DNA of 64,000 nucleotides, taken from NCBI GenBank assembly GCA_028751875.1, contig CM054154.1, positions 57,695,250 through 57,759,249 on the forward strand. The letters are read 5' to 3'. Numbering within the stretch: the first letter of the stretch is position 1; each line of letters opens with the position of its first letter. Positions 22,216-61,466 of this stretch are shown piece after piece. Position numbers and translations under genes: made by a program. The DNA comes from Rapana venosa. Taxonomy: Eukaryota > Mollusca > Gastropoda > Neogastropoda > Muricidae. The notes beneath the pieces were generated by a model. The model worked only from the letters and a program-made list of their open reading frames with translations. It did not search any database and was not told the origin of the DNA.

Positions 22216-24176
22216 AGTTTTCTGTACCATTGTCTGTCACTAACTGTATGGACAACTATATCTGGGAATGATATTTTCCATCAATCGGTGAGCCACTGTG
22301 TCTGCAGATTTATCTAGTACCGCAAATGCTTCTGGCCAACAACCGAAATGATGCACAAATGCTGCTATGTACCTATTTCCTGACAAACGTTTTGGGTATG
22401 GTCCCGACAAATCAAGACTTACCTTTGCAAATGGATAGGGTGGAACATCCATTTCCTGCACTGGTGCCTTTTGCTTTTGCATTACCCTTGCCTGACACAC
22501 CACACAACCACTCACATACTCATACAGTCCTCTATACATGTCTGCTCAAAGTACTTTTGTTGCATAGTGTCATAAGTCTTGTCAATACCCATGTGACCAT
22601 TTTCGTCATGGTACTGTTATATCACCAACGGAATCAGATGTTTAGGTATGGCTAGTCATGTTCTGGGCTCATCATCCTGATTCGATAAGAAGTACAAAAT
22701 ATCATCAATAACTAGAAACCTTTTCCGTATAAGTTAAGATGCATTTTCTTGTTCCATCTGTTTTCTTATCTAGACCAAATTGCCATCCTTGTCCTGTTCT
22801 ACCTTCATGTCAAACTTAGCAAACTCTACTCTCTCCAGTTTTTCTCTTTTTTCCTCAAAATCTGTTAGACCAGCGAAATCTTTTGGTGTGGATAAATTTG
22901 AATTAATTACATCTACCTCCAATGAGCTATCACTCACTTCTTTTACCTGTTCTACCTCTTCTTGTAAATTTGCTCAGCTAAATCCTCGGACAATCGGGAC
23001 AACAAATCTGCCAATACATTTGTTGGTCCTGGAATGTACTCGATAGTACAGTTGTACCCTGCAATCCCCAATGCCCACATCTGAATTTTCTTATTCCCCA
23101 TTGGAGAGTTAAGCAAGTATTTCAAGGGTCTATGATCCGTGCAGATCTTTAATTGTGCATTGTGAAGATAATAATCTAACTGTGGTAAAGCATAGTAAAT
23201 AAGTCTTCAATTTTAACGTCTTTCCACTTTAAGTGATACCAGACCTCTTTGTCAGGGCGATAATTGGTTCTGCTATTTTGTGAAAAAAAGGGGATAAATC
23301 TACAATAATGGCTCACTATACCTGCAGAGCTACACACTTCTTTCACAGCGGTAGGTGCAAGCATACCCTGATTGCTTTAACCTTTTATTGCTCTGGCTTG
23401 GCACCATCTTTACCCACTACAAACCCTAAATACTTAGTGTCTTCTCTCATCAATTGGCAGTTTTTCAGCTTGAGATGCAGGTTATGGTGGTCTAACCTGT
23501 CAAACGCCATGTTGATGTGTTTAAGATGGTCCTCTAGAGTTTAAGAGAAAATCAAACTGTCATCAAGATATGCTATTGCAAAGTTTTCAAAGCCACTAAG
23601 TACAGTATTCATCAGCATAATGAACATACTGGGTCCATTGGTCATCCCAAATGGCATGGCATTAAATTCAAAGTGACACACAAATGCTGTTTTCTCCCTA
23701 TCCTTGTCAGCCATCTTTACCTGCCAATAGCCACTTTTCAAATCCAGACTGGAAAAGTGCATGGCTTTCCCCAACAGGAAAAGTAGATCATCAATCAAAG
23801 GGAGGGGGTATTTTGTTGTTGTGTTGCTGTGGTTTTTATTCCCATTAAGCTTACATAATCTACATAAAGACGTTTAGATCCATCTTAGACCTGACTAGAC
23901 TTGAAACACCAAAGATATTGCGAACCTGTAACTTTGGCTTCTATCATTGAATCCAATGCTTTATCAACTATCTCCCTGTCTTGCAAAGGAATTCTATTTG
24001 GGCGCATTTTAATCATTGCTTGATTGCCAGTGTCACTGGTACACTCAACAGTATTCTGTTTGTCCTAAATACAAATCCCTAGTCAGGAAAAGGTGTTTCC
24101 TCTTTTGGATCAGTCCACTATTTTTGCATCAATTTCTGAGAGCTTGATTTCGGAATTATGCTTTTTGCTCTTGTCT
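22216..24176 (-). mobile_element. Ty3/Gypsy LTR retrotransposon pol (RT, RNase H, integrase)
   Basis: In minus-strand order: reverse transcriptase (about 24,080-23,540), with VDY, FSSLDLKSGYWQVKM, MPFGMTNGPSMF and the catalytic AYLDDSLIFS; RNase H (about 23,330-22,990), with KICTDHRPLKYLLNS and YIPGPTNVLADLLSRL; integrase (about 22,630-22,216), with a GHMG-KT segment, CVVCQARV completing an HHCC zinc site, the first catalytic aspartate in SLDLSGPYPK, and TDNGTEN around the second. The integrase is cut off there by another LINE. The protease side continues on the far side of the L2-like insertion, at about 29.3-29.5 kb. Frameshifts and stops are frequent. Confidence 0.85.
23541..23798 (-). pseudogene. 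Gypsy reverse transcriptase core
   Basis: An 85-codon open piece spanning the first catalytic aspartate region (HFSSLDLKSGYWQV) through the CHFEFNAMPFGMTN block to YLDD, with all the hallmark residues in register. It ends at a stop just after YLDDSLIFS, where a Gypsy RT would normally continue. Confidence 0.85.
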
Positions 24177-24361
24177 TTTAATAATAATAATAATAATAAT
24201 AATAATAATAATAATAATAATATGTGGAATTTATATAGCGCTGAATCTTGTAAAACCAACAAATCGAAGCGCTTGCTCTCAAATCATTTACGCCCATGAA
24301 ACTTTCCTCAAATATAATAAATAACATATTTCAAATTTATGCACGCGTACCTGCGCGCGCG

Positions 24362-24427
24362 CACACACACACACACACACACACACACACACACACACAC
24401 ACACACACACAAACACACACACACACA
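24362..24427. repeat. (CA)n microsatellite in LINE 3' region
   Basis: Follows a short GCGCGC stretch. It lies between the LINE stop codon and its ATT-tailed end. Confidence 0.95.
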
Positions 24428-24495
24428 CCCGCGAACACACTTAGGAAATGAAGGATGCAGTTAAAAAAAGTAGAGACGGATATGAGGGAAAAGTG

Positions 24496-24842
24496 TCAGG
24501 TAGGAAATAAGTGTGTTTTGAGGCTCGATTTGAAGGTATCAAGTGAAGGTTTTTGGCGAAGTGAAAGAGGGAGGTCATTCCAGATGGACGGACCAGAAAC
24601 AGAGAAAGATCGACAGCCAACAGTGGTTTGTTTGTATCTGGGTTTTCGAAAGCACAAAGTATCTGCGGCTGAACGAAGGGAACGGGATGGAGTGTACAGG
24701 TGAAGACAGTTACAAAGATAAGATGGTGCAGATTTGTGGAGACATTTGAAACAGAGGGTGTTGATTTTATACTTCAGTCTTTGTGAGACTGGCAGCCAGT
24801 GAAGAGATCGCAGAAGAGGAGCGATGTATTCGGATTTTTTCT
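24496..24842 (-). pseudogene. Displaced C-terminus of the long L2-like LINE
   Basis: This begins with LRKKKSEYIAPLLRSLHWLP and ends with FKSSLKTHLFPT and a stop. It continues precisely the frame that ends in QLVLRK at 25,955, showing that the copy in between is an insertion. It is more diverged from the inserted copy than from the D copy at 34.9-35.1 kb. Confidence 0.85.
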
Positions 24843-58720: not shown

Positions 58721-59139
58721 GAATCGGGGTTTTTCATTAAAAAAATGGGCACAGTATAATAGAATTTAAATTTCTGCCAATAGGGGTATGCTGTGCAATG
58801 AAAATTTTGGCAATTGAAATGGCCTATTTCTATTTTTTTGATACGAAATGAATTCATCTGGGGTGGGAAACCCTGGGGGTGAATAGCTTTTGGACCCGAC
58901 TTGCTATGTTTTGAAAAAAAGTGGGAAAAAGATTAAATAAAAATTAACCATAGTGAAAATTTTTTGGGCCAAAAACGTATATTCGACGGGAAATTTTCTT
59001 TTTCAACGCATGTAAAATTGTTTCATGTATTGTACTGTTTCGGGGGCGCTTTGGGTGAAAGGGGAAAAAGGCTACCCTGTTGGTGTTATGGTTGTGTGGA
59101 CGGAAATGCCAATTTGGGGCAGTCCCCATGTGGGGGGTT

Positions 59140-59370
59140 TAAAAATTTTTTAGCCCCACCAAAAAAAACCCCCGGCCAAAAAAGGGGAGTTTTCATTGGC
59201 AAAATTTTGTGAAAAAAAAAAACTTGATACGGAAACAATTTCAGTTGGAAAACAGGGAAAAAAAATTTTTATGAAGGGTGGCGTGTCTTGAGGCAAAAAA
59301 CACTCTCCCCGGGGAGAGCAGTCCGAATTTTAACAGATAAAACTGTCGTGACTTAAAGTGTTTTGAAAAG
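59140..59370 (+). mobile_element. SINE fragment, degraded copy
   Basis: Counterpart of 39,601-39,825, with the CTCCCCGGGGAG hairpin near 59,305. Confidence 0.7.
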
Positions 59371-60559
59371 AAATGAAATTCCCCCTTTTGAGAAAAAAAA
59401 AAAAAGGGAAAATAGGCAGAGATTAAAAAAAGTGTATGTGTCTTTGGGTTTAAAATTAGTCAACAATTTTAAATGTGATGTTAAAAAGTTCATCTTAAAG
59501 ATACAAAGGAATTTCTTTATTATTTTTTTCAGATAACATGCCAAAGTCATCGTCCCTTTTTGTTTTTTGCATGATTCAATGAAATTTTCATTTTGAATTT
59601 TTTATGTGTGGCAGACCTTTAATACCCAAAAAGGGGTTCTAAAAAAAAATTAAAAAAAACCCTTACTTCTTTACACTTATACTGTTATAGAAATATCCAT
59701 ACCCATTAATGTGATTTATTTTGGGTTTCCAAATAACTCTGGCATTTCCAGTTTATGTGCGGGACACCCTTTTTTGGTTTAACAGGGAAAGTGTTTCAAG
59801 GATGATGTAATGCCATTTTATTTAAACTTGGGGGACGGGGGTTAAAACCCGTGTTTTGCCTCGCCCTCAAAGAACAAATTTTTAGGGGCTGGGCCCTTTT
59901 GTTCAAAAATCGTAGCTTATAGTGTCCCCTTAAAACCCAACCCTTTTTTGGGACAGGGAAAAATGTGAAATGAAGAGAAATTTTTTTTTTACACTAAAAG
60001 TGACGTTTTTAGAGGCAAAACAATATGCAAAATCAAGTAGCATCACTCCAAAGGGGACTTGACAAGCACCAATAGGGGGAACATCCCTTTAAAAAGTTCG
60101 GGCTTCTAATCCAGTGTTTTTCTGCTCCCCCCAAGGGGGCCCTGAAAACAAATTTAAAAAAGGTAATCAATCTTTTAAAAAGCACCCCCTTGTTTATCTT
60201 TTAATGGGGTGGAAGCGTGATTTGCCCCTGATTCGAAAATGGTAGGCCCGCTTAAAATGGAAGATGTTACTGCTAAACAAACCAAATGGGAAAATTAATT
60301 TCGTTCACTTTCTGTGTTAAAACATTTTACAGACATGATGAAAAGGGTGAAATTTAAAAAAATGGATTTATGACCATGCAAGCAAAATTACAAAGTTGGG
60401 GGGGCTTCAGGGATTGGTATTTTACAACGTGCAATCACAAAGGGCGTTTGCCAAAATGGAAAACAAGAAACGGCACAATTGCAAAAGTCTTAAAAAGAGA
60501 TTGTCAAAACTTTGGGAAAACCCCCCAAAAATCCCCCTCGGGGCCCGGGGAAAAGTAGA

Positions 60560-60890
60560 GACTTGTTTCCTCAGCTAAGGGTTTTGCAGTATCGTTGTGG
60601 TTACCATTTTGGTTTGGGGAGTTTTTGGATCTTGGCTTCAGTTCAGTCCCCCAGGTTTTACCCTCTTTGATTTGTTTTTTTAAAATATAGGGTGTTATAA
60701 AAATTCCCTGTATTATTATTAAATGGGTACCCGGTTTTTTTTGGGTCCAAAAAAAGGCAAATTTGCGAAGGTGAGGAGATGGGGGTCGCATTTAATATGC
60801 TGGGGCCCCCAGAGAAGCGGGTTTGACGCCTTTTTCCCCTACGACCAATAAAATTATGGGAACCTTTTCCTTTACCCTTTGGGTCAAAAT
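60560..60890 (+). mobile_element. 5S-derived SINE-like repeat, degraded copy
   Basis: Counterpart of 40,960-41,285. The 5S box is corrupted (TTTGGTTTGGGGAG in place of the clean word). Confidence 0.65.
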
Positions 60891-61466
60891 CATGCCCAGA
60901 TGAGATATTTCCAATTTAAATTTTTAAAATTCCCCTTTTTTGTGATGTGATTCTTTTATTTAACAATTTAAAACCCCAAAATTTTGGAAAACAGCTTTTT
61001 TTTAAAGGGTTTAAGTCAAATTTTTCTTTCCCGATGGTACATTGAAAAAAAGCAAGCATTTGTTTTTTTGGGGGGATAGGTGTGAAATTGGCATCGAGGC
61101 CCCGATCAAAAAGCTTTGCAAGGGTGTTCACCCCAAAATTTTGGAAAAAACAGCGATATAAAGTTTTCTGAAAAAATTCTTCAGTAAATTCTTTCCGTCC
61201 TTTGCAACCTTTTTTTACTAAGGGGTTTTTTCTTCCCAGTAAAGTCAAGACAATGCCCCTTGAAACAATTGGGGAGGTGGAAGAAAATTTCCAGGGACGC
61301 CCAAGGAAATTTCAGACCCAAAGAACACGCCACCCCTGATCAGTGGGTTTTCCCCTACTCAGTTGTCGCATAACTTTAGGGGCAAATGGGTAATGACCCT
61401 TTTTGGGAGTAACCCAAAATTTTTTTTCCGTAGTCTTTTGTGATTTGACTAAGATCTCTGACTTGG

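Follow-up and report, generated by a model that had tools for sequence, protein, structure and literature searches.

A probable homotype false duplication with a smeared second copy on chromosome 21 of the assembled Rapana venosa genome

We examined a 64,000-bp window of the genome assembly of the gastropod Rapana venosa (chromosome 21; C21:57,695,250-57,759,249), in which a unit of about 18.9 kb is written twice, head to tail, the second time with a dense load of errors that nearly all lengthen runs of a repeated base. We conclude with high confidence, from the letters of the assembly, that the pair is very probably a homotype false duplication, an ordinary assembly artefact in which a good piece and a poor draft piece overlap by 18.9 kb and the overlap was left untrimmed. 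Positions below are those of the window, on the plus strand. The assembly that we searched holds 2,276,439,651 bases in 2,004 contigs and the published form 2,300,182,741 bases in 5,242 sequences (PMC10432487), so, from the difference in size, the one searched is either a later version of the published one or has been trimmed somewhat.

Extent of the duplicated unit

Comparing the window with itself by blastn, we found one collinear pair dominating the result, the remaining matches belonging to scattered repeat families. The pair was returned as two plus-strand matches, 22,934-24,868 with 41,853-43,882 at 78.7% identity and 24,969-41,846 with 44,029-61,472 at 80.7%; with flanks added and other settings, the two merged into one match, 20,156 columns long, between 22,934-41,843 and 41,853-61,468. 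Reading the breakpoints from the sequence places the unit at 22,924-41,845 (18,922 bp; copy 1), a clean tract with long interspersed nuclear element (LINE) fragments and simple-repeat arrays, repeated head to tail at 41,841-61,471 (19,631 bp; copy 2). Copy 2 is longer than copy 1 by 3.7%. The junction itself, 41,841-41,845, reads GAGCT, a pentanucleotide that closes copy 1 and also opens the unit (22,924-22,928), and at the far end of copy 2 (61,466-61,471) the sequence reads GAGGCT.

For the base-by-base comparison we used an anchored global alignment, since MAFFT, in which gaps were too dear for smeared sequence, gave lower identities of 0.67-0.76 per kb. The anchored alignment contains 16,320 matches and 1,894 mismatches; relative to copy 1, copy 2 gains 1,420 bases and lacks 712. 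The largest single insertion is 15 bp and the largest single deletion 3 bp; insertions of 7, 15 and 12 bp cluster near 24,854-24,869. Since no single gap exceeds 15 bp, the nested elements of the unit recur in the same order in both copies. This is what the first-pass annotation of the stretch, an earlier reading of the same letters, had described, nested insertions included, and the ends that it gave for the duplicated unit fall within about 5 bases of the breakpoints reported here.

A search of the whole assembly with 38,300-41,846 as the query returned, besides the window, only partial matches of up to ~620 bases among the 40 of 22,973 candidates that were scored, a weak search in that the known smeared copy was itself absent among the matches listed. 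Rfam gave no match at gathering score.

Errors in the second copy

The differences between the copies are strikingly uniform in kind. Of the 1,894 mismatches, 1,860 equal a neighbouring base of copy 2, and 1,397 of the 1,420 inserted bases likewise copy a neighbour; copy 2 is thus copy 1 in smeared form. We simulated random errors and passed them through the same aligner, at error rates set by us rather than measured on continuous long reads (CLR). With half of the insertions cognate, 637 of 1,279 mismatches and 976 of 1,628 inserted bases extended a run, and with no cognate insertions 604 of 1,428 mismatches did so. Because nearly all of its errors copy a neighbouring base, unlike those of the simulations, copy 2 does not resemble a raw read. 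We therefore rejected the idea that copy 2 is a literal raw CLR read, given that simulated random errors leave about half of the mismatches outside the run-extending class; a draft consensus left unimproved by polishing is the better description. Bases lost from copy 2 are distributed asymmetrically between the strands (293 C against 68 G, and 248 A against 103 T), which would fit a consensus drawn from few reads, mostly of one strand.

Repeats related to parts of the unit serve as third copies. Aligned to copy 1, four such repeats, one of which sits inside copy 1 itself, cover 534 of the mismatches between copy 1 and copy 2. At 468 of these positions their base matches copy 1, at 28 it matches copy 2, and at the remaining 38 it matches neither. 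The same direction is seen in each of the four taken separately (copy 1:copy 2:neither, 97:1:1, 88:5:3, 99:6:10 and 184:16:24). Judged against these repeats, the errors are in copy 2. Pfam searches of open reading frames gave weak support to the same view, as the copy 1 and copy 2 frames among the 10 submitted were not paired one to one. Among four frames of copy 1, three matched reverse transcriptase (RVT_1) or endonuclease above the curated cut-off and one matched reverse transcriptase below it; no match was returned for two frames of copy 2 and one frame beyond it.

Identity of the underlying copies

Beneath the smear, the two copies are nearly identical. We restricted the comparison to 1,951 testable columns, flanked by six exact bases on either side, and found 126 isolated substitutions that extend a run and 0 of any other kind. 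As a control, single-nucleotide polymorphisms (SNPs) were spiked into copy 1 at three rates, five runs per rate, one of the rates being the published heterozygosity of 1.41% (PMC10432487). Isolated substitutions that do not extend a run then numbered 11-19 at 1.41%, 2-7 at 0.5% and 0-4 at 0.2%. When mismatches that do not copy a neighbour were counted in all contexts, the 34 observed compared with 96-125, 56-61 and 40-47 at the same three rates. Divergence beneath the smear is therefore far below that expected of two haplotypes, although ~0.2% or less would still be compatible with the counts. With 0 SNP-like differences where 11-19 were expected, copy 2 is therefore best taken neither for the other haplotype nor for an aged duplicate. 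Seven simple-repeat arrays are similar in the two copies, their length ratios, flanks included, being 0.99-1.11 against a mean copy 2 expansion of ~1.04.

Quality step at the junction

We used the share of bases that repeat the one before them as a measure of smear along the window and its flanks. This fraction is 0.268 in 20,093-41,845 and 0.459 in 41,846-63,491, and the maximum-likelihood position of the step is 41,846 (interval 41,835-41,861), on the junction. Counted in 500-bp bins, a value of 0.40 or more is attained nowhere in copy 1 (0 of 37) but almost throughout copy 2 (37 of 39). The base count of the window includes no N; the junction is accordingly free of an N-marked scaffold join, and the quality steps there without N, contig boundaries being unmarked in the data.

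Smear outlasts the duplicated unit. It fills the remainder of the window (61,472-64,000) and continues outside it to ~68.4 kb, from where the sequence is clean. A repeat match at 67,209-69,764 crosses this edge collinearly, and for that reason only the left overlap looks untrimmed.

Smear is also common in the neighbourhood. In the 184 kb read, smeared blocks, defined as 1-kb bins at or above 0.40, occupy ~14.0-18.3, 41.8-68.4, 83-92, 95-96 and 99-104 kb in window coordinates, the last three lying in the right flank ~19-28, 31-32 and 35-40 kb past the end of the window. Further away, we took 18 samples from other chromosomes; one was entirely N, and of the 136 scorable 500-bp bins that remained once N-rich bins were left out, 9 reach 0.40. 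Because smear is so common nearby, the argument rests on its starting at the junction and on the contrast between copies that are otherwise identical. With ~10 smear edges in ~179 kb, the chance of one falling within 13 bp of the junction is, by our arithmetic, ~0.15%.

A possible origin in the assembly process

The Rapana venosa genome has a heterozygosity of 1.41% and a repeat content of 57.72%; it was assembled from PacBio CLR data with wtdbg v2.4, Pilon, Purge Haplotigs and 3D-DNA, and 78.51% of the assembly is covered by Illumina reads (PMC10432487). A route through CLR, wtdbg 2.4 and Pilon could leave smeared, doubled tracts of the present kind. In its available portion, the pipeline description names neither a gap filler nor long-read polishing. 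We dropped the filling of a gap by a raw read, as no gap filler is named there, and prefer an untrimmed wtdbg2 overlap; the merging of overlapping contigs at scaffolding is a possible alternative route. The same paper gives a PacBio read N50 of 434.10 kb that equals the contig N50, with a contig N90 also of 434,100; these figures are probably slips. Our literature search, which included the available portions of PMC7483855 and PMC9668749, found no description of a wtdbg2 artefact of the present type, and the 12 papers listed of 1,365, judged by their titles, included no report of misassembly in the Rapana venosa genome.

On the reading that we favour, an untrimmed overlap, the snail most likely has the 18.9-kb unit once, in the order left flank, unit, right flank. 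The well-agreeing, polished part of the assembly would stop at 41,845, and the piece that follows, ~26.5 kb long (41,841 to ~68.4 kb), would start 18.9 kb upstream of that point. This second piece would be a draft consensus made from few or poorly agreeing long reads, the low read support being something that we infer. Because the draft piece disagrees with the good one at ~20% of columns, the overlap would have gone unrecognised and untrimmed, perhaps through a failed merge in wtdbg2 or its consensus step, and the two pieces would have been laid end to end, writing the unit twice. Short reads would then map to the clean copy, and polishing would presumably act on that copy alone.

The first-pass annotation had arrived at much the same picture. 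Its proposal of a probable false duplication agrees with the finding of one allele, with errors on copy 2 and a quality step on the junction, and its account of the errors as run expansion and smearing rather than scattered substitutions is borne out by the mismatches and inserted bases that copy a neighbour. It had seen the quality drop at about 41,839, close to the fitted change point, and had noted correctly that poor quality persists past the end of the unit. Its image of a polished contig joined to an unpolished overlapping piece survives in substance, with one amendment, namely that copy 2 resembles a smeared draft consensus instead of a raw read. It had also argued that the second copy of a recent real duplication would be clean, which by itself is too strong, as smear occurs nearby where no duplicate was detected; the argument keeps its force in that the smear starts at the junction.

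Several observations weigh against an untrimmed overlap. The ends of the unit have the 5-bp GAGCT in common, for which we calculate a chance of ~0.5% if the ends were random, and a short shared sequence at the junction is typical of real end-joining. It could also arise where pieces are joined by a search for short overlaps. Of the 378 repeat matches, the 60 best, which are those listed, include no tandem copy of any of the four other smeared blocks in the sequence read, from which it follows that smear does not by itself cause duplication. The GT array at 36,374-36,525, the one of the seven arrays that departs most, measures 152 bases against 177 for its counterpart in copy 2, above the mean expansion. 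Finally, false duplications are mostly separated by gaps (Ko et al. 2022, PMC9516828), and no gap is present in the Rapana venosa case.

Alternative explanations

Another way to view the pair is as a real and very recent 18.9-kb tandem duplication, produced by end-joining at GAGCT, whose second copy lies by chance in a badly assembled stretch. The GAGCT microhomology is what such an event would leave, the copies are alike apart from the smear (a difference of ~0.2% or smaller being compatible), and smear is not rare nearby and also affects 9 of 136 bins sampled elsewhere. However, the onset of smear within ~13 bp of the junction must then be a coincidence of the ~0.15% order calculated above, and identical 19-kb copies should behave alike at the consensus step and under polishing, yet smeared bins are confined to the second. 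We consider this explanation very unlikely. A variant would have a fresh, perhaps heterozygous, duplication in which copy 2 is unpolished from the junction onward since it was assembled only from the few reads with the length to extend through it; this, too, we regard as quite improbable.

A heterotype false duplication, with copy 2 representing the other haplotype set beside the first, is suggested by the heterozygosity of 1.41% and by the need for haplotig purging in this genome (PMC10432487). Against this, the published heterozygosity predicts 11-19 SNP-like differences and there are 0, the repeat arrays are of similar length in both copies, and alignment gaps never exceed 15 bp singly, such that we give the heterotype explanation hardly any credence. 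That the copies represent an old segmental duplication, their 20% divergence being evolutionary, would account for the overall identity of ~80% but is scarcely credible at all when the divergence is nearly all run extension with few scattered substitutions, when 468 of 534 third-copy comparisons favour copy 1, and when the same run-rich style appears at 14.0-18.3 kb, where no duplicate was found.

Other smeared tracts and repeats

The separate smeared stretch at 14,006-18,333 is worse than copy 2. Up to 0.83 of its bases equal the previous one (500-bp bins), the smear worsening rightward to an abrupt end near 18,334, and its sequence content is not trustworthy. Using 12,000-18,335 as the query, both plain and run-compressed, we found no duplicate of this stretch in the window: the plain form gave one short match within the smear, and the run-compressed form gave a single match, of 30 columns, at 60.7 kb. 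Outside the window, the examination extended to the flanks. As the search for a duplicate of this smeared stretch in the window came up empty, poor quality is not in itself a mark of duplication.

Two further repeats were observed. Within copy 1, 23,290-24,179 pairs in inverted orientation with the left flank, ~22.8-23.6 kb before the window, over 891 columns with 99% identity, suggesting that a repeat was inserted recently. In clean sequence of the right flank (132,594-137,720 in window coordinates), self-blast matches at many offsets mark a tandem, satellite-like array.

Implications

If the favoured reading is right, a false duplication can sit gap-free inside a published Rapana venosa chromosome, where a census of genes or repeats would count it as real. 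The analysis also offers a test that needs no reads: where the differences between tandem copies are nearly all run extensions, and the sequence abruptly becomes richer in runs at the junction, the second copy would be a consensus artefact and not a paralogue. The Illumina coverage of only 78.51% (PMC10432487) would fit many smeared or doubled tracts in this assembly, a link that we draw ourselves. The case appears ordinary in kind, and is well documented for one that was approached from sequence alone.

Comparison with known kinds of duplication

Homotype duplications occur near contig boundaries or arise from sequencing errors, and are of about read length (Rhie et al. 2021, PMC8081667). In some false duplications, unsupported sequence connects the copies (Ko et al. 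2022, PMC9516828), and it is to this group that the Rapana venosa case would belong. As in homotype false duplications (PMC8081667, PMC9516828), the same allele is present twice on one scaffold: there are no haplotype-specific variants between the copies, as judged on the assembly sequence rather than on read k-mers, and consensus quality differs between them, with the errors in one copy. The lengths involved, 18.9 kb repeated and a bad block of ~26.5 kb, may likewise be on the scale of reads. Unlike most false duplications (PMC9516828), the two copies adjoin without a gap.

With heterotype false duplications the pair has in common the neighbouring position of the copies in one scaffold and a heterozygous species as the source, but haplotype-like differences, the mark of that class, number 0 in 1,951 testable columns. 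With tandem segmental duplications formed by microhomology end-joining, it has in common the head-to-tail arrangement and the 5 bp of shared junction sequence. In a real duplication of that kind, however, quality would be independent of copy identity, whereas here it changes at 41,846, with 0 of 37 bins smeared on one side and 37 of 39 on the other, leaving one copy clean and the other smeared from the junction on.

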